DNA of 64,000 nt from Candidatus Thalassospirochaeta sargassi. Its GTDB lineage: Bacteria > Spirochaetota > Spirochaetia > UBA9216. The notes under the pieces are model-generated. The model was not told the DNA's origin, made no database searches, and worked only from the letters and a program-made list of their open reading frames with translations. A program made the position numbers and the translations under genes. Of this stretch, positions 5,050 through 44,727 are shown piece by piece (the stretch's first letter is position 1; every line of letters starts with the position of its first letter). The stretch is from positions 1 to 64,000 of the forward strand of contig JAQQAL010000007.1 of assembly GCA_028532855.1 (NCBI GenBank). Direction: 5' to 3'.

Positions 5050-5922
5050 GTGCCTAAATCAACAGTCTCTATATTTCTGGATCACCTTCCACCTACAGCG
5101 GAGCGGCTTTGCGCATTACCTATCGAAGCAGCCGGTAAAGATTTTGAGGGTTTGGAGCTGAAGCTTATTGATAATTTTCCATGGGATTTTGAGTGCAGAA
5201 TGAAGAGCTGCACAAGTTATGACGAAATTGCGATAGGATTTGTGTCTGAACAGTGTAAAGCACTTGGTCTTAATCTATATTTGAGGTTTCCTTGTGAGGA
5301 TGACTTCGCCAGAATCCTGCGACTTCGAGGATACCGGAAATTTATAAAAAGGGATAGTGGGAAGATAATAATCGACAGCGAAGCGGTTGGATTTAAGCAC
5401 CTGATTGAATCCGTTGCCGAAGATGCAGCGGCTCTGCTGCCGTCATTGAAATTCTTCACGTTTCCACCTGTGACGGCAGAAAGCGGATATACAGAAATTG
5501 TTTCCGATATACTTATAAATGCCGGCTATAAAACTGCTGCGGGCTGCTGTGAGGCTGATTGGCTGTCGGCTGATGAGTTTCTATGCGGTGCAGATTCAAT
5601 TGTTGTTGCAGAATATAGAAGTCTGAAGGATTCGTATCAAGACTACTGTATTGCTTGTGAGGAGTTGAGACTTTCTATTATAATGTCTCAGCTTTCAAGT
5701 ATGCCTCCGGCGGCCGGTCGAAAAACTCCCGGGCGTCTGGTTAATGATCTGCACATCAACAGAAAGGCCTTTGACAATAACTCCGCAACCTTCAGGAAGA
5801 TTGCCGCAGGAAGGATTGAACCGGACTGGCTTGATTTAATGTTGCGCGCTATGAAGCTCGCCGCTGATGAACTGCTTCACAGCCTTGAAGACAGGGCAAG
5901 ACAGAGTGGCCTGCTTAATTGA
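5050..5922 (+). CDS. Hypothetical protein upstream of ilvD
   Basis: 290 residues from a GTG start (no strong ribosome binding site). I do not recognise it. It has no signal peptide or membrane segment. Several cysteines occur in the middle (AAGCCEADW, YCIACEELR), which could bind a metal or be structural. The C-terminal 60 residues are helical and basic (NRKAFDNNSATFRKIAAGR). It lies 73 bases before the ilvD start on the same strand, so co-transcription is possible, but a promoter-like sequence sits between them. Confidence 0.65.
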   Translation: MPKSTVSIFLDHLPPTAERLCALPIEAAGKDFEGLELKLIDNFPWDFECRMKSCTSYDEIAIGFVSEQCKALGLNLYLRFPCEDDFARILRLRGYRKFIKRDSGKIIIDSEAVGFKHLIESVAEDAAALLPSLKFFTFPPVTAESGYTEIVSDILINAGYKTAAGCCEADWLSADEFLCGADSIVVAEYRSLKDSYQDYCIACEELRLSIIMSQLSSMPPAAGRKTPGRLVNDLHINRKAFDNNSATFRKIAAGRIEPDWLDLMLRAMKLAADELLHSLEDRARQSGLLN

Positions 5923-5941
5923 TACTTAAGTAATTGAAGTA

Positions 5942-5970
5942 TTGCTGAATCTGATAAAAAACGCTATTCT
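5942..5970 (+). promoter_or_regulatory. Possible ilvD promoter
   Basis: TTGCTG (5942-5947), a 17-base spacer, then TATTCT (5965-5970). The predicted start is about 20 bases before the ilvD ATG, leaving room for the AAGGAG at 5983-5988. No leader peptide or attenuator is visible. Confidence 0.4.
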
Positions 5971-5995
5971 TTATTTGATATCAAGGAGTAATTTT

Positions 5996-7831
5996 ATGAG
6001 TATACCTTTAAGAAGTAACGATACAACACAGGGCAGACGAATGGCAGGTGCGCGCAGTCTGTGGCGTGCAAACGGAATGAAACCCGAGCATTTTGGAAAA
6101 CCGGTGATAGGTATCGCCAATTCATTTACGCAGATGGTGCCAGGACATGTACACCTTCATGAAATCGGTCAGAAGGTCAAAAAACTAATTGAATCGAAGG
6201 GCTGCTTCGCGGCTGAGTTTAATACAATCGCAATTGACGACGGAATAGCCATGGGACATACCGGAATGCTGTATTCTCTACCGTCGCGTGAACTTATAGC
6301 GGACAGCGTTGAATATATGTGTAATGCGCATCGAATTGACGCCCTGGTCTGCATAAGCAATTGCGATAAGATTACCCCGGGTATGCTAATTGCTGCCATG
6401 AGACTGAATATTCCCGTTGTGTTTGTTTCAGGCGGGCCTATGGAAGCCGGTGATATCGCCGGCAAACCTGCTGATCTTGTTGATGTAATGGTAAAAGGCG
6501 GCGACGACAGTGTCAGCGACGCGGATCTTGCGGCATACGAAGAATCAGGCTGTCCCACATGCGGTTCATGTTCGGGAATGTTTACTGCAAACTCGATGAA
6601 CTGCCTTAATGAAGCGTTGGGTCTAGCCCTGCCTGGTAACGGTACGGTTGTAGCAACTCACAGTAACCGCTTAGGCTTGTTTGAGCGAGCAGCAGAGCTG
6701 ATAGTGGAGCTTGCAGACAGATATTACAATAAGGGTGACAAATCGGTCCTGCCTAGGAGTATTTGCACAAAGGCTGTTTTTGAGAATGCAATGTCGCTTG
6801 ATATAGCTATGGGCGGCTCGACTAATACAGTGCTCCATCTCCTGGCTATTGCCAATGAGGCTGGAGTTGATTTTACTGTTGAAGATATAGACAGGCTATC
6901 TAGAAAGGTTCCCTGCATTTCGAAGGTTGCACCGAATTCAAGCTATCACATTCAGGATGTTAACCGTGCCGGCGGTATTCTGGGTATTCTCGGTGAGCTT
7001 GACAGGGCCGGGCTTATTGATACAAGTGTAGGCCGTGTTGATTTCGGAAGCCTGAAAGATGCTCTGGATTATTATGATATTATGCGTCCCGGACATAGCG
7101 AAAAAGCTGATAATCTGTATAAGAGCGCGCCAGGTAATATAGGGCGTAACCTGGTGATGGGTTCTCAGTCATCATCCTACAAGGCTCTGGATGACGACAG
7201 GGCTGGTGGTTGTATAAGAAGTGCTGAAAACTGTTATTACCCCGATGGTGGACTTGCAGTACTTTTTGGAAACATTGCTGAAAAGGGCTGTATTGTCAAG
7301 ACTGCGGGTGTGGATTCTTCTATTTATCAATTTTCCGGTACCGCAAGGGTGTTTGAAAGCCAGGAAGAATCATGTGACGGTATTCTTGACGGTGAGGTTA
7401 ATGAGGGAGACGTTGTAATTATCCGTTATGAGGGCCCGAAGGGGGGGCCGGGAATGCAGGAGATGCTTTATCCTACTTCATATCTCAAGTCTAGAAAAAT
7501 CGATAAGCACTGTGCGCTTTTAACTGACGGCAGATTTTCAGGCGGCACGTCAGGTCTTTCAATTGGACATGTTTCACCGGAAGCGGCAGCCGGCGGGGCT
7601 ATTGCGCTTGTAGAAAGTGGAGATACAATTGAGATCGATATTCCCAACAGAATAATTAATCTGGCTGTCAGCGATGAAGTCCTTGCAAAACGAAGAGCTG
7701 CTGAAGAAGACAGAGGGAAAGATGCTTTTACGCCAAAAAAACGGGACCGGGTTATATCAACTGCTTTGAAGGCCTATAGTATATTTGCGACATCTGCTGA
7801 TAAGGGTGCTGTGAGGGTACTTCCTGAGTAG
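5996..7831 (+). CDS. ilvD: Dihydroxy-acid dehydratase
   Basis: 611 residues, close to the usual IlvD length. The enzyme dehydrates 2,3-dihydroxy-3-methylbutanoate and its ethyl homologue to the 2-oxo acids of the valine, isoleucine and leucine pathways, using an iron-sulfur cluster and Mg. Visible signatures: the N-terminal [32 protein letters not shown] and [20 protein letters not shown] with cluster cysteines, and [20 protein letters not shown] near the C terminus. The ATG at 5996 is chosen because an AAGGAG precedes it and the family begins here; an upstream in-frame start would add an 18-residue tail. No other branched-chain gene is present in the window. Confidence 0.97.
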
Positions 7832-7855
7832 GGAGTTAAAAAGGGTAGGTCGGAA

Positions 7856-8002
7856 CTAAACGCAGACAAGGTTTCTGCGGTGTTCTTCAACCCTTCGTGC
7901 TGTAGTGAGGGTCCTGTAGAGTTCTTCGAGTTCTGCGGGATCCTTTTCTTTTTCAATGGTTTCTTCAAGAAACATTATAAGTTCAGTTATCGCATTGCCC
8001 AT
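7856..8002 (-). CDS. Small helical protein, 48 residues, unknown
   Basis: ATG at 8002 preceded by AGAAGGAGAG at good spacing, giving MGNAITELIMFLEETIEK and ending VEEHRRNLVCV. It is highly charged and predicted helical (EKEKDPAELEELYRTL), with no export signal. It is convergent with ilvD (25 bases apart) and divergent from the UPF0316 gene. The good ribosome binding site and codon pattern make it more credible than the other open frames here. Function unknown; it could be a small regulatory or structural partner. Confidence 0.6.
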   Translation of the reverse strand: MGNAITELIMFLEETIEKEKDPAELEELYRTLTTARRVEEHRRNLVCV

Positions 8003-8102
8003 TCGAATCTCTCCTTCTAAATTATTATCGGTTTGTACCTACATTTTTTTCAATAAATATGCTTCAATTATTGTGATTTTACTAAAATAAAGGGGAAAGC
8101 TC

Positions 8103-8621
8103 ATGGAAGCGCTGCTGATTTCAGGTGTAATCGTATTTTTGGGTCGTATTTTACAGGATATAGTATTCAATTTTAAAATAGAGATGTTCAACCGGGGTAA
8201 GCTTTCCGGTGTTTTCGGGATTAATTTTATTGAAAGTATTATCGGTATGACGGTTATTGCAATGGTTGTAGGATATATTGATGACGATCCCAGGCTTCTG
8301 CTGTTTCTTGGTTTAGGCTCGTCGGTTGGCGGTATGATTGTTATTCAGATACGAACTTTGATGAATCGGCGCCTTGAAGGGCAGCGCCGGTATTATGCCA
8401 GGGTTTCTTATGTGGGCAATGAGGATCTTGTGGAGATTCTCAAGAACGATGAGTTCATTTTTACCGTTGAAACCCGTGAATTTATTGATGGAATGAAGCG
8501 TACTATCATTGAAGGTTCACTTGAGAACAGGGCTCGTAAAGAATTGTTCAAAGAGCACTTAAAAGGGCGTCCGGATAAACTGGTTACTATAATTCCCGCT
8601 TCCGAGGTTTACTGGGTTTAG
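8103..8621 (+). CDS. UPF0316 / DUF2179 membrane protein
   Basis: 172 residues. Two or three hydrophobic segments (about residues 3-20, 38-60 and 65-85) are followed by a cytoplasmic DUF2179-type domain (from about 100: VSYVGNEDLVEILKNDEFIF ... ASEVYWV). The family is widespread in Firmicutes and spirochaetes; no reaction is established. The ribosome binding site AAGGGGAA sits 7 bases before the ATG. It is convergent with the U32 gene eight bases downstream, so transcription must end inside or between them. Confidence 0.8.
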   Translation: MEALLISGVIVFLGRILQDIVFNFKIEMFNRGKLSGVFGINFIESIIGMTVIAMVVGYIDDDPRLLLFLGLGSSVGGMIVIQIRTLMNRRLEGQRRYYARVSYVGNEDLVEILKNDEFIFTVETREFIDGMKRTIIEGSLENRARKELFKEHLKGRPDKLVTIIPASEVYWV

Positions 8622-8629
8622 GAAGTCCT

Positions 8630-9868
8630 TTATTTCCAGGATTCTTTAGCGCTCGCCTTCTTTCTGACTATGAAACCTTCTTCAACGGGTGCGTCGGTTG
8701 TGATTGTGTATTTTTTACCATGGTCTGCCTGCTCAACAGGCAGGCCGTCTTCATCGTAGACCATGTAATATTCGTCGGTTACAAACAAAATATCCGGTCC
8801 AATAAACTCAAGCGGCTCAGCCGGACGAATCTGATTTTTTACAATAAGTTCCCATTGGTTTTCAGCGATCTTTCTGCCTATCATCCCCATGAAAATGTAT
8901 TCACGCTGGTATGATTTCTCGGTAGGTGTTTCAATATCTTCCCTGCCGAAATAAAAGCCTGTTGAAAACTCCCGATGACTTACCTTTTCGAGTTCTTTCC
9001 TGAAACCGGAAAGTTCATCTGTTGAAACCGCCCCGCCTTCCAGCGCATCCACAGCCTTGCGGTAGGCCCTGGTAACAATAGATGTATAGTAAATTGATTT
9101 CATCCGGCCCTCGATTTTAAGTGAGTCAACTCCTGCATCTTTGAAGCCCTTAAGATGATCTATCATGCATATATCTTTGGATGAAAGAATGCTTGTGAAA
9201 CCGTCGCCTTCATAAACTGGATAATATTCCGCCGGGCGTTTGGCTTCTTCCAGGACGGTTCCGCCCTCCTGCAGCATGCGGTAGTCCCATCTGCACGAAT
9301 GCGAGCAGAGGCCCTGGTTGCCGCTGCGATCGGCCATCCATGAACTTAAAAAGCACCTTCCTGAGTATGCAAGACACATTGCGCCATGTACAAAACATTC
9401 AATCTCAACCTCGGGAACGGCAATCTTAATACGTTCAATTTCTTTGAGTGAGGTTTCACGTCCGAGAACAACTCTTGTAAATCCCATATCCCGATACATT
9501 TTGACTGCCTCTGAGTTAACACAGTTTGCCTGTGTGGATAGATGCAATTCTGTATTCGGAAAGCGTTTCTGAAGTTGGCGCACAATGCCTATGTCACTGA
9601 TGATGAATGCATCAAATGGATAGTTCGCAATATATTCGAGGTTTTCATCAAGCTTATCGAGGTCACCCTCGTGAAAATAAATATTCAAAGCTCCGTAGAG
9701 TTTTTTACCGCCCTTGATTTCGCGAATCAGCTTGTATTCTTCGTTCTTAAAGTTTTCAGCCTTTTGACGAAGAGAAAAATTTCTTATTCCGATATATGCC
9801 GCATCGGCACCGTAGATATATGCGTATTTTAGTTTTTCAACATTGCCTGCCGGGGAGAGAATTTCCAT
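8630..9868 (-). CDS. Peptidase U32 family protein (probable RNA hydroxylation factor)
   Basis: About 412 residues beginning MEILSPAGNVEKLK, as in the family. The U32 signature is clear: ECFVHGAMCLAYSGRCFLSS, then further cysteines in GLCSHSCRW, which in RlhA/TrhP-type members take part in prephenate-dependent hydroxylation of 23S rRNA or tRNA wobble uridine; a collagenase-like activity was the older assignment. Which RNA is the target cannot be told from sequence. An in-frame TTG at 9904 has a better-placed AGGAG, so a 12-residue longer form is possible. Cytoplasmic. Confidence 0.85.
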   Translation of the reverse strand: MEILSPAGNVEKLKYAYIYGADAAYIGIRNFSLRQKAENFKNEEYKLIREIKGGKKLYGALNIYFHEGDLDKLDENLEYIANYPFDAFIISDIGIVRQLQKRFPNTELHLSTQANCVNSEAVKMYRDMGFTRVVLGRETSLKEIERIKIAVPEVEIECFVHGAMCLAYSGRCFLSSWMADRSGNQGLCSHSCRWDYRMLQEGGTVLEEAKRPAEYYPVYEGDGFTSILSSKDICMIDHLKGFKDAGVDSLKIEGRMKSIYYTSIVTRAYRKAVDALEGGAVSTDELSGFRKELEKVSHREFSTGFYFGREDIETPTEKSYQREYIFMGMIGRKIAENQWELIVKNQIRPAEPLEFIGPDILFVTDEYYMVYDEDGLPVEQADHGKKYTITTDAPVEEGFIVRKKASAKESWK

Positions 9869-10026
9869 GAGGCGTAGAATAGCAGGAAAAACACGAAAAA
9901 TCAATCATTGAAACTCCTGCTCTGTATAAGAAAACAAAGGAAAGATTTTCCAGATAACGATTAGCCCAAATAGATAAAAATCAGCTATACAAAAGGTTCT
10001 CCATAAATTAGAATACTTTAAGAATT

Positions 10027-10929
10027 ATGCCTGATGTGAAAAAACAGCTTGCAATCATAATATTTTTATCATTACTCGCCGAATTTGCAGTTTTAGCCGA
10101 AACTATACCGGGGAAACAGGATTATCGTTATCAATGGCCTGTTTCCATATTTCCTGTAGAACAGCCCTATGGAAATGTTAAAAACATTATCGAGACCGCC
10201 TATACGATGGCGGATGATAACGGAAATCGTGAGTTCAAGTATGAGCTGATTCTCCGATATTCTGAAGATGGGCTTCTGATGGCCGAAGAGTATTATAATA
10301 AGGACGGCAGCCCCGGAAACAGTATAGAATACAGCTATGAGGATGGTCTCCTGGTTCTAAAAACCCAGCGTCACCCCGAGGTTATAAATCCCGATCGTGA
10401 AATCTTTACACACATGCCGGACGGTCGTATTATGATGGCTGAAAAAATATTTTCTACCGGAAATTATGGTTGGCGATTTCAGAACTCATACGATAACAAC
10501 GGCAGAATAATTCTCACAAGCAAATTTGACCGTTATTGGAAATGGAAACTTGTTTACAGCAGGATGTTCGGATATAACGAGCGGGGACTGCTTTCATCGA
10601 CTGAAGGCTTCGGAATGGAGTCTGAACTGCTCTGGCGGGATGAGTATTTCTATGATGATGAAGACAGGTTGGTTAAGTCGGTGAAGTATAATCCGCAGGA
10701 CGAACTAGTCGTCAGCATATTCAATGAATATGATGAACGCGGAAATTATACCAGACGTGAGTTTTTTGATGCTACCGATAGTTCCTTCGCTGTTTATTCA
10801 TACGGCTGGGATTATGATGATATGGGTAACTGGATAGCAAAGGTTATTGGACGCGAGGTGGAAGGCAGTAGATCGGCATACCTGGTACCTGATTCTATGA
10901 TTAGCCGGGTAATCGAATATTACGAATAA
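10027..10929 (+). CDS. Exported protein with YD/RHS-like repeats, unknown
   Basis: 300 residues with a signal peptide (hydrophobic residues 8-24, likely cut after VLAE). The rest is a chain of β-strand repeats with a Tyr-x-x-(Asn/Asp)-Gly pattern, for example SYDNNGRIIL, FGYNERGLLS, EYDERGNYTR and DYDDMGNW, similar in style to RHS/YD or MORN-type repeats. Such proteins are usually periplasmic or surface-exposed; no enzyme motif is visible. It is convergent with capA and overlaps its 3' end by 29 bases. Confidence 0.7.
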   Translation: MPDVKKQLAIIIFLSLLAEFAVLAETIPGKQDYRYQWPVSIFPVEQPYGNVKNIIETAYTMADDNGNREFKYELILRYSEDGLLMAEEYYNKDGSPGNSIEYSYEDGLLVLKTQRHPEVINPDREIFTHMPDGRIMMAEKIFSTGNYGWRFQNSYDNNGRIILTSKFDRYWKWKLVYSRMFGYNERGLLSSTEGFGMESELLWRDEYFYDDEDRLVKSVKYNPQDELVVSIFNEYDERGNYTRREFFDATDSSFAVYSYGWDYDDMGNWIAKVIGREVEGSRSAYLVPDSMISRVIEYYE

Positions 10930-12055
10930 AATAATCATGCATTAAAATGTAACGCTCAAGAAAGTAGGTCATCCATGGTTCGGGTACGGCCTGATGTGTC
11001 AGATCCTCAAGAGGGGTTATCACGACATCGCGGTTGGTTGTCATGATATTTGCGATAGGTATTGCCCTTATGTCTTCAAAAACAGGGTTTTCCCCGTCAA
11101 AGCTTATGTCTGCCTGAATTATTGCGGAATCGCCGGTATATGACCACTCCTCTTCCGGCAGTACCGGGTCGGCAATGCGGCCCTGACCCGAAATGAAGTT
11201 GCCCAGTGAATACATAATCAGACTGTTTCCGTTTTTATGTTCATACAATTCTACGGGCTGAATTACATGTGGATGATGTCCCCATATAATATCAACCCCG
11301 GCGGATGACAGGTTATGAAAAAGCTCCGTCTTCTTTTGTACTGGGGTGGTGTAGTATTCGCGGCCGCCGTGGTAGGCTAATACGAACAGATCATATTCAG
11401 AGACGATAGTAGATATCCACTCAACAAACTGTTCTGACTCTTCAGTATCTCTGAAATCTACCAGCAGCATATGTCCCGGTTCAGGCACAGTATTTGAGAA
11501 CTGTGAAACTGAAAGATATCCTATCTTCCAGCCGTTTTGATATATTGTAACCGGTTTAAAATCGATTTCCGGATTCTGTTTGGCTCCGGAGAAGTAAATC
11601 CGTCTGTTGTGTTCGAGCCGGTAGCGGTTAACCATGGAGTTGACAGCCTTGACTGTAGATTTAAGCCCTTGCGTTCCCTGATCACCGGTATGATTATTGG
11701 CGAGAGAAAGTACATCTACCCCTGCATCAATAGCGGCCATTACATATTCCGGATGAATGTTGAATACAGGATAACTTGCCTGTGGTATTTCGGGGTTTAC
11801 TGGAAACTCTACATTGCAGAATGTGAGGCTGTCGTTCATCATTATCTTTTCAATGTCGCGGTATATAAGCGAATAATCATCCATCGAATAATTAATGATG
11901 TGGGCCATCATATCCCCGGTGAAGCTTAAAACAAGCTCTTTTTTAACCGGCGGGGCACAGCTGGCGCATTTTTCGACTTCCTCGGCATTGAGAACCGGCG
12001 CAAAAGCTGCTAATGCTGTTAGAGTAGCAGTAAAAAGCCTAAAAAATCTTTTCAA
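10901..12055 (-). CDS. CapA-family (poly-γ-glutamate synthesis-type) metallophosphatase-like protein
   Basis: 384 residues, signal peptide at 1-24, then a CapA/PGA_cap domain: SFTGDMMAHI, FCNVEFPV, DVLSLANNHTGDQG, IWGHHPHVIQPVE and YSLGNFISG are the calcineurin-like metal-binding blocks. CapA proteins act at the envelope, classically with capB/C in polyglutamate capsule export; no capB or capC is here, so that role is unsupported. A CxxC (CASC, residue about 31) follows the signal peptide. The TTG start lies inside the 3' end of lon (17-base overlap), indicating translational coupling. Confidence 0.85.
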   Translation of the reverse strand: MKRFFRLFTATLTALAAFAPVLNAEEVEKCASCAPPVKKELVLSFTGDMMAHIINYSMDDYSLIYRDIEKIMMNDSLTFCNVEFPVNPEIPQASYPVFNIHPEYVMAAIDAGVDVLSLANNHTGDQGTQGLKSTVKAVNSMVNRYRLEHNRRIYFSGAKQNPEIDFKPVTIYQNGWKIGYLSVSQFSNTVPEPGHMLLVDFRDTEESEQFVEWISTIVSEYDLFVLAYHGGREYYTTPVQKKTELFHNLSSAGVDIIWGHHPHVIQPVELYEHKNGNSLIMYSLGNFISGQGRIADPVLPEEEWSYTGDSAIIQADISFDGENPVFEDIRAIPIANIMTTNRDVVITPLEDLTHQAVPEPWMTYFLERYILMHDYFIRNIRLPG

Positions 12056-33779: not shown

Positions 33780-36239
33780 TTAGAAAGACACCCTCATGTC
33801 AACAGACATCGCAAAGCTTGTGTTCAGAGTACCGTCGTCGTTTATGACAAGGTCGCCGTCATCATCACGCTCATATGTTGTTGCGAACTGAAGTGCAATA
33901 TCAAGTGAGTCATCAAATGGATAAACAAGCTCGCCGGAAAAGATTGTGTCTGAATCGAAGAGCTGAAAGTCCTGTGTTCCGGCAACAGCATCCTGAATGC
34001 TGTCTACAAGGCCTGTTCGGGAATAAGAAACGGAACCGTACAGGCCCAGTACAGGAATTACATCCTCCATCAGCATTGCCGTCAGGCTGAATGAGTCTTG
34101 AGCGGAGAAGTCAAATGAGCCGTCATCGTTTATGCTCCACGGCCAGTAATAGCCGCCGCCGACTTTAACTGCATCAAATAAGTTGATTGAAAGATCTCCG
34201 TAGATTCCCATTGTGTATTCCTGGTAATCGGAGTCGAGCGGTGCAGCAATATAATCAAGCAGTTCATAATACTGTGACGTCTTATTAGTAAGATAATCAT
34301 TAGCATAGAAACTCGGGGTGAATACCCCCTTGCTGAAGCGGTATTCGAGTCTGTATTCAAAGTTTAGAATATTACCGAAGAATCCGCCGATAAGTCCGTA
34401 ATTGTTAAGAGCGGAGATAAAATCAGGTTGATCGCTGTTGTAGATTGTTTCCCAATGCCAGACATCATCCTCGTAGAGCACAAAGCCGGCAGCTTCTGCA
34501 AAGAAGGTAAGGTTGATAGGATCAATCGGCAGGCCTATGTCGAAGGCTCCGTTAAGAACTAATGGATCAAAGAGTCCGGTTGTATCCTCAATCTCTGAAT
34601 CCGGATTGATGTCTGTAATTCCGGAGAGCCCGAATGCAAGCGGGAACTTTTCTCCGCCGGGAATGTAGACAAGTCTTCCACCGAAAATTGTAGGATCTGC
34701 AGCATCGTCAAGGACTCCTTCAAAACCGAATTTTTCAAAGGTTACGCCGGTGTTGATTCCGACCTTTCTGACTGCTGGAAATTCAATGTTATTTGAAAAA
34801 TCGCGCATCAGAATTCCGTAGCCGATAGTCATATTATCAAGGTTTCCGAATTTGAAGTAGAAATCATCCCCGTTGTCGCCCCACTGCAGGTAATTTATTT
34901 TAAGAAAAAGGTCGCTCATAATATCGAATAAGATTTCCGAGGTTCCCTCCTGATCGGTACCGAATGACCATTCATTATTCTCAGCAGGCCAGTACCAGCT
35001 TTCCCAATCAAAGAGATTGTCCTGGTATATTACCGGTAGATAGAGTTTTGCTCTGAACTCGCCAATTTCAAACTCAGGCTGTATAACCGCCTTTGCGTAG
35101 GTTTCACCGTCGATGAGGATTGAGCCTATCTCAAAGCCTAGCATATCGAAGAGGTTATCAAAGAATTCACCCACAGCAGTCGGTTCTTCATCTTCTTCTG
35201 TTTCCTCTTCTTCCTCCTGATCTTCACCTTGATCATCAGTATCAGGTCTAGGATCTCCAGTCAGGAAGGCTGCAGCCGAGCCTGATCTTGAGAGCTGGGG
35301 AGTCTCTCGAACAGATTTCTCTTCTATCCCGTTATCAGTTGTTTCAAGAGCCTTGCCGTCGGAGGATGCATCATCAGCTTTTTCTGCGTTTTCAGGTCCG
35401 TCAGAGGGAGTTTCATCAGCTTCGCCGTCATCATCCGGGTCACCTGTACCATCGTCAGCTGCGTCGTCGGCAGGCTGTTCATCATCAGAACCGTCTTCAG
35501 CAGCAGATTCTTCCTCCCCATCATCGGCCTGATCATCGGCAGGATCTTCAGCCTGTTCAGCCGGGTCTGATTTTACTGTATGACCTGGGACCTGTGCTGG
35601 ATCAGTTCCCCTGAAGTCCATTCCGCTGAATATTGACGACAGGCTCTGGGCACTCGCTGCTGTTGCCTGAAATGTTTCGGCAAAAACATCAGCAAGCTGA
35701 CCGGCTGATACATTTAAAGTTTCACCGGAAAGCAGGCTTGAAAATTCAACCTTACCTTCGTTAACGGCGACAACCCCAATCGAATCAATTACAAAGTCGG
35801 TTCCGCGAACTCCGCAGACCGCTGATTGAGTTATTATCGAATAATTCTCATATCCTAAACCGGCACGTGCGGCAATAACTCTTAATTTTCCGTTGAAAAG
35901 TGAAAAGTCGTTTGATTCATCAGCTGAAGTCTGGAAGGCTTCTATCTGAAAAACCGAGTTTTCGGATATTTTCAGGATTGAGCCGTTAGGATCAAGCTGA
36001 ATCTCTGCACTGGTATTATAGGTTTTAATCGTGGATCCTGGAAAAAGCTCCATGCCCATAAAAACCTCGCCGACGTAATCACCCGTACTGTCAAATACCT
36101 CAAGTTCAAAATCATCATCGTAGTAAACGAGGAAGGCAGTAGGGCTGCTGCTGTTCTGTGCCGTAAGAGGTGCGGCGAAAATAATAAATAATGCCAGCAC
36201 AAAACCGGCAGTTGTAAAAATCTTTTTGTTACAATTCAT
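33780..36239 (-). CDS. FecR-domain protein fused to an outer-membrane barrel
   Basis: 819 residues: signal peptide (1-27), FecR-like domain (about 55-190; KISENSVFQIEAF, GVRGTDFVIDSIGVVAVNEG), a very acidic linker (about 215-345), then a β-barrel region of about 450 residues ending in Phe (SMSVDMRVSF-type end; the last residue is F), as expected for outer-membrane assembly. The barrel resembles that of the neighbouring 458-residue protein (shared YLKINYLQWGDNGDDFYFKF-like and TIFGGRLVYIPG segments). FecR domains here are likely periplasmic binding modules. Function unknown. Confidence 0.75.
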   Translation of the reverse strand: MNCNKKIFTTAGFVLALFIIFAAPLTAQNSSSPTAFLVYYDDDFELEVFDSTGDYVGEVFMGMELFPGSTIKTYNTSAEIQLDPNGSILKISENSVFQIEAFQTSADESNDFSLFNGKLRVIAARAGLGYENYSIITQSAVCGVRGTDFVIDSIGVVAVNEGKVEFSSLLSGETLNVSAGQLADVFAETFQATAASAQSLSSIFSGMDFRGTDPAQVPGHTVKSDPAEQAEDPADDQADDGEEESAAEDGSDDEQPADDAADDGTGDPDDDGEADETPSDGPENAEKADDASSDGKALETTDNGIEEKSVRETPQLSRSGSAAAFLTGDPRPDTDDQGEDQEEEEETEEDEEPTAVGEFFDNLFDMLGFEIGSILIDGETYAKAVIQPEFEIGEFRAKLYLPVIYQDNLFDWESWYWPAENNEWSFGTDQEGTSEILFDIMSDLFLKINYLQWGDNGDDFYFKFGNLDNMTIGYGILMRDFSNNIEFPAVRKVGINTGVTFEKFGFEGVLDDAADPTIFGGRLVYIPGGEKFPLAFGLSGITDINPDSEIEDTTGLFDPLVLNGAFDIGLPIDPINLTFFAEAAGFVLYEDDVWHWETIYNSDQPDFISALNNYGLIGGFFGNILNFEYRLEYRFSKGVFTPSFYANDYLTNKTSQYYELLDYIAAPLDSDYQEYTMGIYGDLSINLFDAVKVGGGYYWPWSINDDGSFDFSAQDSFSLTAMLMEDVIPVLGLYGSVSYSRTGLVDSIQDAVAGTQDFQLFDSDTIFSGELVYPFDDSLDIALQFATTYERDDDGDLVINDDGTLNTSFAMSVDMRVSF

Positions 36240-37681: not shown

Positions 37682-40600
37682 CTAGTAAATGATACTTCCG
37701 CTGATACCGAAACTCAAGCCGAAAGTTGAAACTTTTTCATTATCCGTATTGTCAAACTCATAGCCTGCAAGACCATAGGCAGAGAGTGTGAATGTGCCCG
37801 GAAGCTGTAGACTTGTAGTGTGTTTCAGCTCTGTACTGAAGGTATCTTCGAAATTGAGGGTTAATTTTTCTTCATTGGTTATAATCTGAAAGCTTTCTTC
37901 CTCATCGGTAAAAAGCGGAAGATTCAGAGGTTTTTCAGGGACGGTACTCCATACGTACATAAGTTCGGATGTGACGGATGATGTCGTGTCTTCTATCTGA
38001 AACGGAAGATATATATCAGTACCGACAGATAATATATCATCGTCATGACCAAAAAGTGATAATCCAAGGTCGATAATCAGATCCATGTAGAAATCCGAAG
38101 TGAAGGGCTCATAGATTTCTGTTTCAACCGACCAGTTAAGCTCATCGGAAAAATAGAAATCAAAAACAGGGTAAACTCCTGCTGAGCCGAACAAATTCAG
38201 AGCAGCACTTCGCCATATTCCACTCCATTGCGTAGTATCTTCGGTATCGCTGTAATCTTTCTCGGTTTCTCTAATCACTGTTATTTCAACAGAATACGGA
38301 AGCAGCAGATCCATGAGTCTGCTGCTGTAGTTCCGACTCAGGCTGATTGATACTTCATTTATGAACTCTGCTGTATTGAAACCGGCAGCCAGCGATGAAT
38401 TGTAGACATATAAAGGTAGATCAGGGCTGAAAAGTTCGTAAAAAGGAATTGATTTATACAGGAAATCTGCTGATGCAAAGCTGGTGAACATTCTGCTTAT
38501 ATCAGTAGTGAAGGCTGTAGAGGCTGTGGGCTGACCGAAAGATGCTGTTCTCTCATAGCTCAGTTCTGCTTTTATGCTGTCGTATCCGGCTTTAAAGGTG
38601 AACGGCAATAAGAATACAGCTGAGAGAGAATCGTCGGCGTCACTGTCTGCGCCGGTGTCTGCAGTTAGATTACAATCCATGTTGATTCCGGCATTTTCAC
38701 CGCTGACTGCGGAAGAAAGAGTGAATCCCGTCTTACGTTCTTCAAGTTCGGTATATCCGAAATTGCCGGCAAGTGCGGTAGCAGTGTACCAGCCTGCAAA
38801 ATAATTTGACGTGCCAATATCATAATCCTGCTCGGCAAGAAGGAAATCAGCTCCGATGTCCAGGTCGAAAATTTTATATTCAGTCCTTAAGCCGGCGTTC
38901 CATGACCGCTGGAGCTGTGTATCGTCGACTGAAGAGCTGAAACCGGCGTCAACCAAGAAAGTATCCGAACCGAAGGAAAGAGTGTTAGATTTATAAAATG
39001 AATTATCATCCGAATCCGAAAGACTGTATTCATCGGTGAGGCTGAAACCGGCAGCTGGAACAGGGATTTCAAGACAGTGGCCGGCAGTTATTTCTACATT
39101 GTCAGACCCGGATACTGAAAGATCAACTGCGATGGGGGCACCCAGGAACGAGGTTGAAGCATCAGTAGTGAAGCTGCATTCGGCGTTGTTGCTGAAAATA
39201 TTCTCGGCATAGTCTTCATATACCAGGGATGCAGATTGATTGAGGTACAGCGGACCGATAATTTCAATCTCACCTGCTGTTAGCAGGGGCTTTTTATAGC
39301 TGAGTTCGAAAGACTCATTTATACCGCTGACGGCCTTAAGCACCGGGTCTCCGAGATAGATTTCATCGATTAATATAACTCCTGAATCAGTCCCCTGTGT
39401 ATACAGCTCCATCCTGTATAAATCAGTCGCTTCTTCATCGAAGATAAGTTCAGCACCGTCGACGGTTTCTCCGTTTACGGTAATGGCCGCCGTGCTGCCG
39501 CCAACCGGCAGACTGACCTCAACCATCTTCCAGTCGGTACCGGTTTCAAGGGGAAGCCTCAGCTTTATTCCAAGATCATCTGAGTCTGTGAAAATGAAAT
39601 TAAGGAATGCTTCTTCACCTGATGATTCAGTGAGTTCCGGACAATGATAAAAGAACGTAAGTTCAGCGTAATCTTCCGACGAAACCGGCGTGATATATGA
39701 GTAAAGTTTCCAGTCTTCGGTCCATTCGACCCTCATCAGGCTGTTGTCGTCATCTGATGTGAGGGTGGGAGATGAGAGGCTTGATTCAGGCTCTTCGGAT
39801 GAGGATATATCCGCCTCAAGGGTGTCGGAGAACTCCGGGGAGCTGAAGCCTGCATCATCGCTTGCTGCGAATGAGCTTCCTTCAATCGTAAAATCGTCAA
39901 ACAGTATTCTGCCTCTTCGATCTGAGGCCGCGGTGTTAACTGCGGTTATTCGGATGAACTCTGCATTGTTCAGCCTGCTTTTTGCTGTGTCGCCGGAATC
40001 GTCAGAAAAGTAATAGCAGAAGCGCTGCCAGTCCTGATCGGGTTTTGTAATATTGGAAAAGCGTACGATAGCTGATGTTTTATCAACGTCGAGAAAGCCG
40101 TTGCCGTTGATGTCTTCGGAATCAATCTGCCCGTTGCCTCCGCTTAGATAGTCTCCTCCTACGAGTGTTCCGTCTGGGGAATTGGGATCATTGAATGTAT
40201 AGCCGGTAGATGTCAGCGATGCTTCTTCATCGATGGTTCCGTCACCGTCAAGATCTTCACCGACAGAGCCGATTTCAAGGTACAGTTCTATATCACTCAG
40301 GTCAGCGTCCGTTTTGCAGTCGAAAGATATTGCCCTTGCACTGCTTAAATCGAGATTGTCCTCGTAGGCTGCGAGGGGGATCTGCACGCCGACCCAGCTG
40401 TCTTCATCAGGTAAAACGTAGTCCATTATCAGTATATCCGTGCTGCGGTCGTCGGTTGTCGCTGATGCAGTGTATGGCCCTGCATTGTACATGTCTTCGG
40501 TGGTGGAATCCTCCGGATAAAAAATCATGCTGTCGTCCAGAACCGTTGAATAATCCTGGAGATAATAGCTCAGCCCCGAATCAATTCGATATTCCCTGTA

Positions 40601-42322
40601 TACAAGCTGACCGCGATCCTCAAGAGACAGGCTTTCATCGTCTGCTATTGAATCAGAAAGGCTTGCGGGAAATATGTTGTCGCTGTCGATTGAAACCTCA
40701 AGCAGGTTATCGGTCCCGTTTTTAAGCAGAAGTCTTCCGGCTGAGTTTTCTACGAGTATTTTTGCTCCTATATCAAGGTCGGCGGCAATACTCAGTGGTG
40801 AGTCAGGGGTATCGCCTGTGCTGTCGAATGAAAGACCTGCTGATATTCCACCGTAAGCGCTTGTTTCCTCTCCGGGTACGGCATAGGAGTCGGAAATATT
40901 CCATCTGATACCGGAATTAATGTTAGCACTGAGGCTGTCGGTTAGAGTGAAGCGGTTCGCGGAAGCAAAAAGGAGGTCTCCTCCGTCGGAGCCGGTGACT
41001 TTTCGATATATTATCTCAATTCGGTCGTTATCACCCGGATCGGTTTCGAAGGTTATGATGCCGCCTGATTCACTCCAGTCCCAGGTTTCTACACCATTTA
41101 TATAAATTCGGATAGAGTCTTCTACCGGATCATCTATCGAATACGAGGATACGGTTTCCCTGACCCTGAAAAAAAGGCTTTTTGAACAGCCATGGTCACA
41201 GTCTGAAGCGTTGGCACCGTAAACATCCTCTGATTCGGCAAGAACAGCCTCCAGGGGGTAATACTTACTCCCGCCTGATGCCTGGCCTATAATAACAAGA
41301 CCGTCATCGGCAAAGATTTCGGCCTCCAGCTCAAGACCTTCCGAGGCTGTTTCTGCGGTTTCGGCCAGGTAAACCCGCGTCTGCCAGTCTTCATCCGGCA
41401 GGACGGTGCTTAAATCGTAGAGAGAGGCTGCTTCATAATCAGAAAAAATACCAGGCTCCCACAGCAGTAGAATGTCGTCATCCCAACCTGTCAAATCAGA
41501 ATAAACAAGAACCGCGCCGTCCGGCTCATCCTCAAGCAGCAGTCTGCCGGTTGATGCATTGTAGGAATAATCTGAACTATCAAACTCTTCAAAGTGGCGG
41601 CTGTCGTATTCAAGACTTCCGTCACTGCTTTCAACATAAAAGACTGCATCAGAAGGTGTATCTGGAATATAGAACAGGCGTCCGTCCAGATAATCGGAGG
41701 GTTCTCGTTCGATTTCTACAAGCAGGTCATCCCCGATATAAAGTTTGCTTATCTCCTCCTGCGGGTCAAACCGGAATAGCAGTTCATGTTCTGACCAAAG
41801 GCCTTCAAATAATGAATAGACACCGTAAGAGTCGGAATCACCGCCGGGTATGTAGAAAAAATCAGAGCTGTCAGCATCATCGCTGAGATTAATTTCCATA
41901 TTTCCGGCAGATACCTCTTTGACGAATTCATCATCATCTCCAATGTACCCCAGCCGGAAGGTTGAATCCTCAAATTCGTCGGTGAAGGCTGATTCAAAAA
42001 GGAGCTTATCAAGGATAAGTAGTGAGATTGTAAAATCCGGAGACTGAGAGAATGTGAAGCCTTCAGAAATTCCTGAATAGCTGTAGGTGTCTGTAAACCC
42101 TGTTCCCGGAACCCACCCGAAGCCTGTTGAACCACTCAGCTCAACCTGCCAGGTTCCGCTTAAAAAAAGATCGACATCTTCGTCATCAATATCTATACTG
42201 TAAAAAGACGAGGCATCCTCTTCCTGCGGTAGGATCGTGTCATCACCGGCGGCGGTTGTAAGACAAACCGACAGAAAAATAAAAAGAAATGTCGAAAAGC
42301 GGTGCTGCACTGTCATTGTCAT
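37682..42322 (-). CDS. Giant surface protein with Ca-type loops and C-terminal barrel
   Basis: About 1546 residues from ATG 42322 (signal peptide MTMTVQHRFSTFLFIFLSVC); an open frame extends to a TTG at 42397 but would hide the signal. Upstream half: β-sandwich modules with acidic loops; two Ca-binding-like loops (DLDGDGTIDEE and DINGNGFLDVD) near residues 715-770; jelly-roll-like stretches around 770-1030. Downstream half (1060-1546): alternating strands typical of an outer-membrane barrel, ending in GISGSIIY with a terminal aromatic. Not recognised as a known family. First of three exported protein genes on this strand. Confidence 0.65.
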   Translation of the reverse strand: MTMTVQHRFSTFLFIFLSVCLTTAAGDDTILPQEEDASSFYSIDIDDEDVDLFLSGTWQVELSGSTGFGWVPGTGFTDTYSYSGISEGFTFSQSPDFTISLLILDKLLFESAFTDEFEDSTFRLGYIGDDDEFVKEVSAGNMEINLSDDADSSDFFYIPGGDSDSYGVYSLFEGLWSEHELLFRFDPQEEISKLYIGDDLLVEIEREPSDYLDGRLFYIPDTPSDAVFYVESSDGSLEYDSRHFEEFDSSDYSYNASTGRLLLEDEPDGAVLVYSDLTGWDDDILLLWEPGIFSDYEAASLYDLSTVLPDEDWQTRVYLAETAETASEGLELEAEIFADDGLVIIGQASGGSKYYPLEAVLAESEDVYGANASDCDHGCSKSLFFRVRETVSSYSIDDPVEDSIRIYINGVETWDWSESGGIITFETDPGDNDRIEIIYRKVTGSDGGDLLFASANRFTLTDSLSANINSGIRWNISDSYAVPGEETSAYGGISAGLSFDSTGDTPDSPLSIAADLDIGAKILVENSAGRLLLKNGTDNLLEVSIDSDNIFPASLSDSIADDESLSLEDRGQLVYREYRIDSGLSYYLQDYSTVLDDSMIFYPEDSTTEDMYNAGPYTASATTDDRSTDILIMDYVLPDEDSWVGVQIPLAAYEDNLDLSSARAISFDCKTDADLSDIELYLEIGSVGEDLDGDGTIDEEASLTSTGYTFNDPNSPDGTLVGGDYLSGGNGQIDSEDINGNGFLDVDKTSAIVRFSNITKPDQDWQRFCYYFSDDSGDTAKSRLNNAEFIRITAVNTAASDRRGRILFDDFTIEGSSFAASDDAGFSSPEFSDTLEADISSSEEPESSLSSPTLTSDDDNSLMRVEWTEDWKLYSYITPVSSEDYAELTFFYHCPELTESSGEEAFLNFIFTDSDDLGIKLRLPLETGTDWKMVEVSLPVGGSTAAITVNGETVDGAELIFDEEATDLYRMELYTQGTDSGVILIDEIYLGDPVLKAVSGINESFELSYKKPLLTAGEIEIIGPLYLNQSASLVYEDYAENIFSNNAECSFTTDASTSFLGAPIAVDLSVSGSDNVEITAGHCLEIPVPAAGFSLTDEYSLSDSDDNSFYKSNTLSFGSDTFLVDAGFSSSVDDTQLQRSWNAGLRTEYKIFDLDIGADFLLAEQDYDIGTSNYFAGWYTATALAGNFGYTELEERKTGFTLSSAVSGENAGINMDCNLTADTGADSDADDSLSAVFLLPFTFKAGYDSIKAELSYERTASFGQPTASTAFTTDISRMFTSFASADFLYKSIPFYELFSPDLPLYVYNSSLAAGFNTAEFINEVSISLSRNYSSRLMDLLLPYSVEITVIRETEKDYSDTEDTTQWSGIWRSAALNLFGSAGVYPVFDFYFSDELNWSVETEIYEPFTSDFYMDLIIDLGLSLFGHDDDILSVGTDIYLPFQIEDTTSSVTSELMYVWSTVPEKPLNLPLFTDEEESFQIITNEEKLTLNFEDTFSTELKHTTSLQLPGTFTLSAYGLAGYEFDNTDNEKVSTFGLSFGISGSIIY

Positions 42323-42324
42323 AG

Positions 42325-42348
42325 AGTATATCGTGTTTTCTGCAATTT
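42325..42348 (-). promoter_or_regulatory. Possible promoter of the surface-protein gene
   Basis: On the minus strand TTTATC (about 42354-42349), an 18-base spacer and TATACT (42330-42325). The predicted start falls between the two closely spaced ATGs at 42322 and 42316, so the mRNA could begin almost at the second ATG. Confidence 0.3.
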
Positions 42349-42405
42349 GATAAACAAAAACCCTGAATATTGATTTTTTGAGGAATTTGGACGACAATTA
42401 GACAA

Positions 42406-43341
42406 ATGATAATTAATGAATCTGATAAACAAAAAGCTACAGCCTTTATACAGCGTTTAATGGCGAACCCTGCATTGAAAAGTTTTTCTCTGCTTCAGAG
42501 GGAAGAGCAGATTATTCAATTCTTAACGGTAAATTCCAGGCAGTTATATCCGACACTTTCATCACAGGCCTTTTTCCCGGGAAAGAGCTGGGACAGCATT
42601 TGTGCTATTCTTGTGTCGGTATTGTATGAACTAACTGATAATGAGGTTCTTCCTGATATACGTTTGCTGATTAACAGGCTTGATTTCACCTTTTTCACCT
42701 TTCTAAGACCATCGAATTTGGATGAAGGACAGGCAAAGCAGGTGGTTATGGATTTTCTACAGAAAATGCTGGCTAATGAGCAGGCAAGACGAATCTTTAC
42801 CGGTTCGCTTGCCGCGGTGAACTATAATATTGTCAAGAAATATACAGCTGAGATTTATCGGCGGAAGAAATACATACATTTTGAACTCTTAAAGGTTGAA
42901 AAGCTGAAAATGGGAGAGCGTGAGGTTGAAAACATGATCAACCTGGTAATGCTTCTGAAGCCGATGATATATTTGTTTTCTCAGCAGGCTAACGTGATGA
43001 AAAATACTGCAAATGGTAATATCTTCCCATGCAGTTTCACAGAAACCCTCGCAAAAAATCTGTCGGCAAAGGCTCAAGCAGTACCGCCGCAGGTATTCAG
43101 CAGCTCGATGAACGCTAATGCATCTTTTGCGGATAATTCTAAACTTGAAGCATCGGCTCGGCTCGGTAATGTTTTTTCAGCCATGTGCAGAAACTACAAA
43201 CCCGACACTAAAAAGGACAGGGGAGCCGATACCGCGATGAAAAGCTGGATAAACGTAGCGCGGAAAAACTATAAGTTTTACGGTTATGATATAAAGATGC
43301 TTGATGAATTATATAATATAGCTGCAGATAACGGATGGTAG
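42406..43341 (+). CDS. Hypothetical protein
   Basis: 311 residues, basic and helical, without signal peptide or membrane segment. I do not recognise a family. Helical blocks include TAFIQRLMANPALKSFSLLQ, FLRPSNLDEGQAKQVVMDF and a C-terminal VARKNYKFYGYDIKMLDELY. The gene ends 7 bases before the voltage-sensor-like gene, and ylxP follows that, so all three may form one unit. It could be a cytoplasmic partner of the membrane receptor, which is inference from position only. The start region is divergent from the giant surface protein gene. Confidence 0.65.
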   Translation: MIINESDKQKATAFIQRLMANPALKSFSLLQREEQIIQFLTVNSRQLYPTLSSQAFFPGKSWDSICAILVSVLYELTDNEVLPDIRLLINRLDFTFFTFLRPSNLDEGQAKQVVMDFLQKMLANEQARRIFTGSLAAVNYNIVKKYTAEIYRRKKYIHFELLKVEKLKMGEREVENMINLVMLLKPMIYLFSQQANVMKNTANGNIFPCSFTETLAKNLSAKAQAVPPQVFSSSMNANASFADNSKLEASARLGNVFSAMCRNYKPDTKKDRGADTAMKSWINVARKNYKFYGYDIKMLDELYNIAADNGW

Positions 43342-43348
43342 GAAAGTA

Positions 43349-44440
43349 ATGGATAGAAAAAATTATCAGGTTTTAGAAAATATCGTACTTGCGGCAATAT
43401 TTTTTGTCCTCGTGCAGACCTTTGTTGAAGATCTCGCGATTGTTGCGGGGTGGAGCTGGGATGTCAGGAGGATTCTGATTCTTACCGGGTTGGGATTTGA
43501 TCTGTTTTTTACAATTGAATTTCTAACCAGACTGTACAGGGCTATTGCCCGGGGCAGTGTCCGGGAATATATTGTTCTAAGACGAGGCTGGATTGACTTG
43601 CTCGCATCCGTTCCCCTTCTGCTGCTGAGTTCCGGGCCGTCCGCAATTGCGGTTCTGATGGGCGGAGGGGCAATTACAGGGGCTGCCGGGATTCTGAATG
43701 TTCTGAAGGTTGTAAAAGCAGTAAGAATTGCACGAATACTCAGGCTGCTCAGGGTTCTGAAAATATTCAAACAGATCAAAAATACCGACTCTGCAATGGC
43801 CCAGCGCCATATCTCCAAGATTACCACAATGGGTGTAGCTGTTTTTGTAGGAATACTTCTGTTTGCTTCTATCTTTGTTCAGATGCTTGGACTGCCGACT
43901 GCAGCAAGCGAGAATGAAAAAATTATTTCCGAGGTGATGATAGCCTATGAAACAAATCCGGATTTAGCTGAGTCATGCAGTGATCTGCTCATAGTTAAAA
44001 AAAGCGGAGAGACAGTATTTACCCGATATGATAATGATTTCTATAAAATGAATTTCGGATTCAACGATTATGTTTACGCTGAGTATATGGGGTGGGAATT
44101 CTTTTTCGATATAAGGGGAGTAGAAAAGGTGCAGTCGATGGATAATCTGCTGTTCTTTGTAATTATTCTTGCCCTTGTGCTGGCATATACTCTTTTTTAC
44201 AGTCCGCATTTCGCTATTACTGTGAGTGACCCTATTCATGTTATGCGCAGAGGGCTTGAAGAGAAATCATACAATTTTGAGGTTAAAATCAATCCTGAAT
44301 ATGCCGGTGATGATATATTCAAACTGGCTGAGAATTACAATAACATTTACCTGCCGTTAAAGGACAGGACTCAGGCCGAGGACTTACCCGATGCGGATTC
44401 TCTTGAATTGAAGTTCGATGATATAAAGAATATGTTTTAA
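43349..44440 (+). CDS. Voltage-sensor-like membrane protein with HAMP-like tail
   Basis: 363 residues. Four N-terminal helices (about 10-145) form a voltage-sensor-type domain: FDLFFTIEFLTRLYRAIARG (acidic S3-like pattern) and the positively charged S4-like VRIARILRLLRVLKIFKQIK. A fifth helix (about 165-185) and a sixth (about 268-285) enclose a soluble region of about 80 residues (AASENEKIISEVMIAYE onward) that must face outside. The end (VSDPIHVMRRGLEEKSYNF ... ENYNNIYLPL) resembles a HAMP. No pore-filter sequence (TVGYG type) is visible, so it is more likely a receptor than a channel. Confidence 0.7.
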   Translation: MDRKNYQVLENIVLAAIFFVLVQTFVEDLAIVAGWSWDVRRILILTGLGFDLFFTIEFLTRLYRAIARGSVREYIVLRRGWIDLLASVPLLLLSSGPSAIAVLMGGGAITGAAGILNVLKVVKAVRIARILRLLRVLKIFKQIKNTDSAMAQRHISKITTMGVAVFVGILLFASIFVQMLGLPTAASENEKIISEVMIAYETNPDLAESCSDLLIVKKSGETVFTRYDNDFYKMNFGFNDYVYAEYMGWEFFFDIRGVEKVQSMDNLLFFVIILALVLAYTLFYSPHFAITVSDPIHVMRRGLEEKSYNFEVKINPEYAGDDIFKLAENYNNIYLPLKDRTQAEDLPDADSLELKFDDIKNMF

Positions 44441-44727
44441 TGACGGTATCAATGATACAATTTGTTTTCGAGCTTCCTGAGGTCGAAAACATAAAAGATA
44501 AACGGAGGATTGTTAAATCCTTCAAGGAAAAAATAATTAAGAAATTTAATGTTACAGCCGCTGAGGTGGATCTGCAGGATTCATTGAGATTCACACAGAT
44601 AGGTGCGGCTGTAGTTTCTAATTCTGCAACATACGGTGAAAAGGTGATGCAGAAAATTCTCAGCTTTGCCGAGGATGAAGTCCCCGGACGACTACATGAT
44701 GTAGAAATATATTCAGAAAGCTACTAA
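44440..44727 (+). CDS. YlxP / DUF503 family protein
   Basis: 95 residues, full length. Small αβ protein with the DUF503 pattern: FELPEVENIKDKRRIVKSFK, IIKKFNVTAAEVDLQDS and AAVVSNSATYGEKVMQKIL. In many bacteria the gene lies near ribosome-binding factor A and a link to translation has been proposed; here it instead overlaps the stop codon of the receptor gene (TAATG) and runs tail to tail with the ComFB gene 3 bases away. Function unproven. Confidence 0.85.
   Translation: MTVSMIQFVFELPEVENIKDKRRIVKSFKEKIIKKFNVTAAEVDLQDSLRFTQIGAAVVSNSATYGEKVMQKILSFAEDEVPGRLHDVEIYSESY

Follow-up and report, generated by a model that had tools for sequence, protein, structure and literature searches.

The gene at positions 43349 to 44440 (forward strand) of the window, i.e., of the whole 64,000-nucleotide stretch of DNA that was analyzed, codes for a protein with the S1-S4 domain typical of voltage-gated channels, which raises the question of whether this protein is a channel or a receptor that could sense membrane potential and pass the signal to the cytoplasm. 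An earlier note on this DNA had favored the latter, reading the product as an S1-S4-type domain with an Arg-rich S4 that is followed by a helix, an outer domain, another helix, and a HAMP-like end, with no ion filter.

The locus and its voltage-sensor domain

The open reading frame starts with an ATG, codes for 363 amino acids, and is present in a single copy in this genome. Its orthologs in four genomes of the same genus are 66 to 80% identical and retain the synteny as well, so the gene can be considered real; a chance or frameshifted open reading frame is ruled out by its conservation in 108 genomes. An origin from a phage or plasmid was also rejected, as no match was found among phages, plasmids, or viral contigs. 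In a scan that used the single sequence, rather than an alignment, as the query, the nearest named contigs were those of Spirochaeta sp. UBA9216 (80%), Spirochaetales bacterium SZUA-414 (75%), Spirochaetales bin_125 (70%), and “Candidatus Marispirochaeta associata” (49%).

The sensor gene is preceded on the same strand by the gene for a 311-aa protein of an undescribed family (positions 42406 to 43341, referred to below as the 42406 protein), whose stop codon lies 7 bases from the sensor ATG, and is followed by a DUF503 gene (44440 to 44727, forward strand; Pfam DUF503, E = 5.4e-25), whose ATG overlaps the sensor stop codon. Given this short gap and the stop/start overlap, the three genes form, by position, one transcription unit. 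The DUF503 neighbor is kept in 18 of 23 loci, and the nearer relatives retain a larger block that consists of a large gene in the opposite orientation, the partner, the sensor, DUF503, a ComFB-like gene, and an HD-domain gene. In the window, the large gene (37685 to 42397, reverse strand) encodes a 1571-aa protein with no Pfam match; it is divergent from the sensor/partner pair and syntenic in nearly all of the neighborhoods analyzed. In many relatives, conserved synteny with this block was also seen for the gene of an 819-aa FecR-domain protein (33783 to 36239, reverse strand).

The Pfam family Ion_trans matches residues 12 to 199 of the sensor (E = 1.9e-9; 37.5 bits against a cut-off of 25) and was found in 26 of the 27 aligned members of the family. 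All four helices of a voltage sensor can be assigned on the forward strand: S1 (residues 10 to 33; positions 43376 to 43447), with the near-invariant acidic residue E27; S2 (residues 37 to 67; 43457 to 43549), with D51, F54, E57, and R61 of the predicted charge-transfer center; S3 (residues 80 to 104; 43586 to 43660), with the invariant D83; and S4 (residues 115 to 146; 43691 to 43786), with the sequence LNVLKVVKAVRIARILRLLRVLKIFKQIK, in which every third position is basic (K120-K123-R126-R129-R132-R135-K138-K141-K144). The charge-transfer residues of voltage-gated channels are the Phe and Glu of S2 and the Asp of S3. In a phylum-wide set of 47 relatives, all retain D51 and D83, 45 retain F54, and 44 retain E57; the S4 charges R126, R129, R132, and R135 are kept in 44 to 46. 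A review of voltage sensors (PMC10651576) gives 4 to 6 basic S4 residues for most channel sensors. The HAMP-like part and the helices S3, S4, S2, and S1 are the best-conserved regions of the family, with mean pairwise identities of 0.45 to 0.66. The sensor part of the AlphaFold2 model came nearest to the structure of the Ci-VSP voltage sensor in isolation (4g7v), with a target TM score of 0.66, which was not significant by E-value. Judging from these sequence features, the protein carries a complete S1-S4 unit and qualifies, at the sequence level, as a voltage-sensor domain.

Such a unit could itself conduct, forming an Hv1-like voltage-gated proton pathway that is regulated by the tail. The conserved acidic residue in S1 (E27 or Asp) and the stand-alone character of the sensor unit would be in line with this, as would the capacity of isolated voltage sensors to leak, which is described in the same review (PMC10651576). 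According to that review, however, a leak usually goes with missing S4 charges, whereas the ladder seen here is complete and even extended; besides, a proton pathway would leave the signaling tail and the dedicated partner without an explanation. This makes a conducting S1-S4 domain very unlikely.

The region between S5 and S6

The S4 helix is followed by S5, or the first signaling helix (residues 149 to 180; positions 43793 to 43888), a putative outer domain (residues 181 to 258; 43889 to 44122), and S6, or the second signaling helix (residues 259 to 284; 44123 to 44200), all on the forward strand. In the outer domain, which spans 80 to 110 residues from S5 to S6 in the family, a helix is predicted to precede a β-β-α-β-β array, an order reminiscent of PAS and Cache domains. 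The AlphaFold2 model places helices at residues 149 to 180, 185 to 202, 229 to 235, and 256 to 293 and strand pairs at 213-218/221-225 and 241-246/249-254. This is a monomer model with a mean pLDDT of 64 (about 71 to 86 in the outer domain), and its quality is limited by the small size of the AlphaFold2 input alignments (7 rows for the sensor; 6 rows in the other alignment). The outer domain had no Pfam match and no fold match. A Foldseek comparison of the whole model with the PDB and viral structures returned nothing significant; the top matches included KCNQ1 chains, with an E-value of 0.13 and a poor superposition (rmsd of 17.7).

The homology to Ion_trans, the order of six helices, and the presence, albeit insignificant, of KCNQ1 among these matches are what could be expected of a tetrameric six-helix channel with an unusual S5-S6 pore and the outer loop serving as a turret. 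However, the model shows no pore helix between S5 and S6. Among 79 relatives, the K-filter pattern was found in one protein and the Na/Ca-filter pattern in another, as can be expected by chance, and the same scan does recognize a true K channel that adjoins one of the relatives (locus L143). Moreover, two deep branches (L133 and L134) lack the outer domain altogether and connect S5 to S6 by only 8 to 10 residues, which makes a pore loop impossible there. The outer domain is also the least conserved large region of the protein (mean pairwise identity of 0.19), the reverse of what a channel pore shows. The absent filter and pore helix, together with the two branches that lack a pore loop, led to the rejection of the channel reading; the protein falls outside the definition of a voltage-gated channel, and a turreted pore of some unusual kind is extremely improbable.

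The poor conservation of the outer domain also bears on the nature of the input. The S1-S4 domain might be a membrane anchor or a sensor of lipids, pH, or a ligand, in which case the outer domain would receive the real input, in the manner of an ordinary chemoreceptor. The receptor-like order of transmembrane helix, outer domain, transmembrane helix, and HAMP would suit such a role, and the Borrelia-type relatives described below retain the gene pair despite a degraded S4. That said, the gating charges and the charge-transfer center are among the best-conserved residues of the family, whereas the outer domain shows little conservation and can be missing altogether, and an S1-S4 domain that does not respond to voltage is therefore considered unlikely.

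The HAMP-like tail and the putative partner protein

The segment after S6 (residues 285 to 342; positions 44201 to 44374, forward strand) was compared with HAMP domains at the profile level, since in single-sequence scans the Pfam HAMP family (PF00672) was not detected in any family member, even at E ≤ 1. As a reference, 30 Pfam-detected HAMP domains of this genome were aligned into a profile, to which tail residues 288 to 335 aligned by hhalign across the HAMP length. With a 26-row tail profile, the score was 25.2 (P = 2.9e-5), while the best of 200 column shuffles reached 22.0 and the reversed profile scored 10.6; with a 45-row profile, it rose to 28.7 (P = 3.4e-6), and none of 400 column shuffles reached this value (best, 14.7). 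Between S-D-P-I and L-A-x-x-Y-N, the alignment stays in register over 43 to 47 columns. When each was scored alone against the rest, the true HAMP domains of this genome gave 25.6 to 60.7, so the tail, at the level of the weakest ones, would be either a diverged HAMP or a look-alike near the lower limit of this range. In the monomer model, this part is a helix, a linker, and a helix at low confidence (pLDDT of about 37 to 65). By profile, the tail thus appears to have the helix-linker-helix register of a HAMP domain following a transmembrane helix, while the Pfam gathering score is not reached; for a tail that Pfam does not detect and that scores no better than the weakest true HAMPs, “HAMP-like” is the fitting label. 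Pfam detects no output domain after the HAMP-like part, and the protein ends about 20 residues beyond it.

The evidence bears out the build proposed in the earlier note: an S1-S4 domain with an Arg-rich S4, no ion filter, and a receptor-type order of transmembrane helix, outer domain, transmembrane helix, and HAMP-like end, the last of these as a diverged, Pfam-negative member rather than a clean family match. Neither of the outcomes that the note had named as contrary to its reading, a pore helix with a selectivity filter in a structure prediction or the lack of a HAMP-like fold at the end, was observed.

The partner candidate singled out in that note, the 42406 protein, has no Pfam, NCBIfam, or PDB profile match. 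Its AlphaFold2 model is all-helical (pLDDT of 81.7) and has no fold match in the PDB by Foldseek; no transmembrane-like stretch was found, and the protein is predicted to be soluble. Members of its family were detected in 94 of the 393 Spirochaetota genomes. At 71 of the 94 sensor places tallied (part of the Borreliaceae rows having been left out), a gene of this family is found on the same contig, always upstream of the sensor and in the same orientation, with a distance that in most cases does not exceed about 60 bases. This pairing holds in widely separated families.

A further link between the two proteins is provided by a conserved peptide at the C terminus of the sensor, LELKFDDIKNMF (residues 352 to 363; positions 44402 to 44437, forward strand), which is a proposed docking site. 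In most members, it is found at the extreme end of the protein, after a variable linker, and reads LSMDDLL or KSVLSVDDLL elsewhere. Of 55 proteins with an adjoining partner, 49 carry the motif, versus 5 of 22 others, the latter excluding two proteins that start at a contig edge (Fisher P = 3e-8, a value inflated by the relatedness of the genomes, which are not independent). As the peptide pattern was drawn from an alignment of the same family, this association is to be taken as a guide rather than a test. Four of the five peptide-bearing exceptions come from one genus and have no detectable partner; the fifth has its partner on another contig. Several of the partner-less proteins end directly after the HAMP-like helix, which, along with the peptide-partner association, suggests that the C-terminal peptide docks the 42406 protein. 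The upstream pairing and the peptide association offer strong genomic support for the earlier view of this protein as a candidate signaling partner.

Alternatively, the tail might not be a HAMP relative at all but an unrelated juxtamembrane docking segment, through which S6 would act on the bound 42406 protein directly. No family member has a HAMP domain recognized by Pfam, the output domain that usually follows HAMP is absent, and the YN-x-x-V and YN-x-x-x-L positions are very highly constrained, suggesting specific binding. Against this, the profile match preserves the HAMP spacing at a score unattained by the shuffled profiles, and the modeled tail is a helix, a linker, and a helix. A docking segment of unrelated origin therefore appears rather improbable, if less so than the other alternatives considered here.

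A paralogous subfamily of about 350 aa (L138, L147, L148, L150, L154, and L159 to L161), in which the protein ends right after the HAMP-like helix, has neither the C-terminal peptide nor an adjoining partner; some genomes encode both subfamilies. Degenerate relatives (L085, positions 5166 to 5993; L144, 8273 to 9175; and L157) have lost the HAMP-like part, several S4 charges, and the partner neighbor. As in L085 and L144, the HAMP-like part and an adjacent partner are both absent in G373.

A possible mechanism, its distribution, and related systems

The intact voltage sensor, the missing pore, the HAMP-like tail, the gene pair, and the peptide-partner correlation, all established at the level of sequence, are best accommodated by a non-channel sensor of membrane potential whose signal is relayed by S5/S6 and the HAMP-like tail to a dedicated partner in the cytoplasm, a reading to which we assign a probability of roughly 0.6. 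It is favored by the fact that almost all of the 47 relatives across the phylum have kept the gating charges and the charge-transfer residues. It is weakened by the sub-threshold HAMP match, the monomer model with a pLDDT of 64, and the lack of a known output domain after the tail, as well as by the four genomes of one genus that have the sensor and the peptide but no detectable partner. In such a protein, a change in membrane voltage would move S4 through the S2/S3 charge-transfer center, and the S4-S5 linker would hand this movement to S5 and S6, which would stand in for the two transmembrane helices that feed HAMP in a bacterial receptor. The HAMP-like tail, presumably in a dimer, would turn the helix movement into a cytoplasmic signal. 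The C-terminal peptide, perhaps along with the HAMP-like part, would engage the soluble helical 42406 protein, which would carry the signal on, possibly to motility or chemotaxis as the final output. The dispensable outer domain probably tunes the response via a periplasmic ligand or load.

Relatives of the sensor were found in 31 of the 60 nearest genomes and in 108 of the 393 Spirochaetota genomes sampled, representing several classes. These bacteria may read their own membrane voltage via a pore-less sensor. A more far-reaching proposal, an unrecognized phylum-wide signaling system in which a voltage sensor, a HAMP-type relay, and a dedicated effector of the 42406 family directly translate membrane potential into a signal in the cytoplasm, can be put forward only tentatively. 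In at least one lineage, the pair may operate without voltage sensing, as the S4 of the Borreliaceae type is shortened and E57 is absent. In the Borrelia-type pair (L081, positions 9328 to 10371 and 10368 to 11231, reverse strand), S4 has a 7-residue gap and E57 is lost; the pair adjoins CheA, CheW-like, CheX, and CheY-like genes on the opposite strand. The small genomes that carry the pair beside chemotaxis genes are those that we take to be Borreliaceae. BB0674 and BB0675, which we assume to be the Borrelia locus numbers for this neighborhood, are not named in any paper found in the literature.

These chemotaxis neighbors make a role in motility attractive. In old work on Spirochaeta aurantia from 1981 and 1983, membrane potential was reportedly implicated in chemotaxis, which is said to be blocked by voltage clamp; if the tentative phylum-wide system exists, it could be the sensor behind this block. 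FliG is encoded in 106 of the 108 sensor-bearing genomes (of the remaining two, one is 88% and the other 73% complete) versus 349 of 393 overall, by a comparison of genome lists by eye. This link is consistent but weak, since the named FliG-negative genomes come from one family and many FliG-bearing genomes have no sensor. Many flagellated genomes of the phylum, including those of one large family (f24, presumably Treponema), lack the sensor-partner pair, which therefore cannot be a universal spirochaete mechanism. With the phylum being mostly flagellated anyway and so many flagellated genomes without the pair, a motility role is not claimed here. According to a 2020 review (PMC7225975), the two cell ends may coordinate their fast reversals by a CheY-independent mechanism, the signal for which was listed there as open. 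The sensor-partner pair provides named genes for testing ideas about membrane potential and reversal coordination.

The accessible parts of two reviews (PMC10651576 and PMC13095418) divide the voltage-sensor proteins into channels, phosphatases, one proton exchanger, and one protozoan cyclase and mention no bacterial protein of the receptor type. No paper describing a voltage-sensing domain joined to a HAMP domain was found in the literature searched, which was open access and thus excluded most subscription journals. In the known non-channel sensors, such as Ci-VSP, S1-S4 is likewise coupled to a part that replaces an ion pore or is present in addition to one. However, these proteins are eukaryotic, with an enzyme or a transporter at their end, whereas the protein described here is bacterial and has two more transmembrane helices, an outer domain, a HAMP-like tail, and a separate partner protein. 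With the HAMP receptors, i.e., methyl-accepting chemotaxis proteins and sensor histidine kinases, it shares the order of a transmembrane helix, an outer domain of predicted PAS/Cache-like strand order, a transmembrane helix, and a HAMP-like tail. It differs from them in that S1-S4 precedes the first of these helices, no kinase, methyl-accepting, or cyclase output is present, and the HAMP is diverged and terminal. The Ion_trans channels NaChBac/NavAb and KvAP have homologous S1-S4 domains, including the charge ladder and the S2/S3 residues; in contrast to these channels, the 363-aa protein lacks the pore helix, filter, and pore loop, and S5 is connected to S6 by a small folded domain or, in some relatives, by a few residues. 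A protein that leads from a voltage sensor to a HAMP-like relay would directly connect membrane potential with signaling in bacteria at the molecular level.

Two further variants of the locus were noted. In one relative (L019, positions 1483 to 2991; L074), the protein continues past the HAMP-like tail with an extra C-terminal extension of ∼130 residues that is very rich in Asp, Glu, and Ser. In L143, the sensor gene (8538 to 9704, reverse strand) is followed on the same strand by that of the putative true K channel mentioned above (7117 to 8454), which has a TTVGYGD filter and a C terminus similar to that of cyclic-nucleotide channels.
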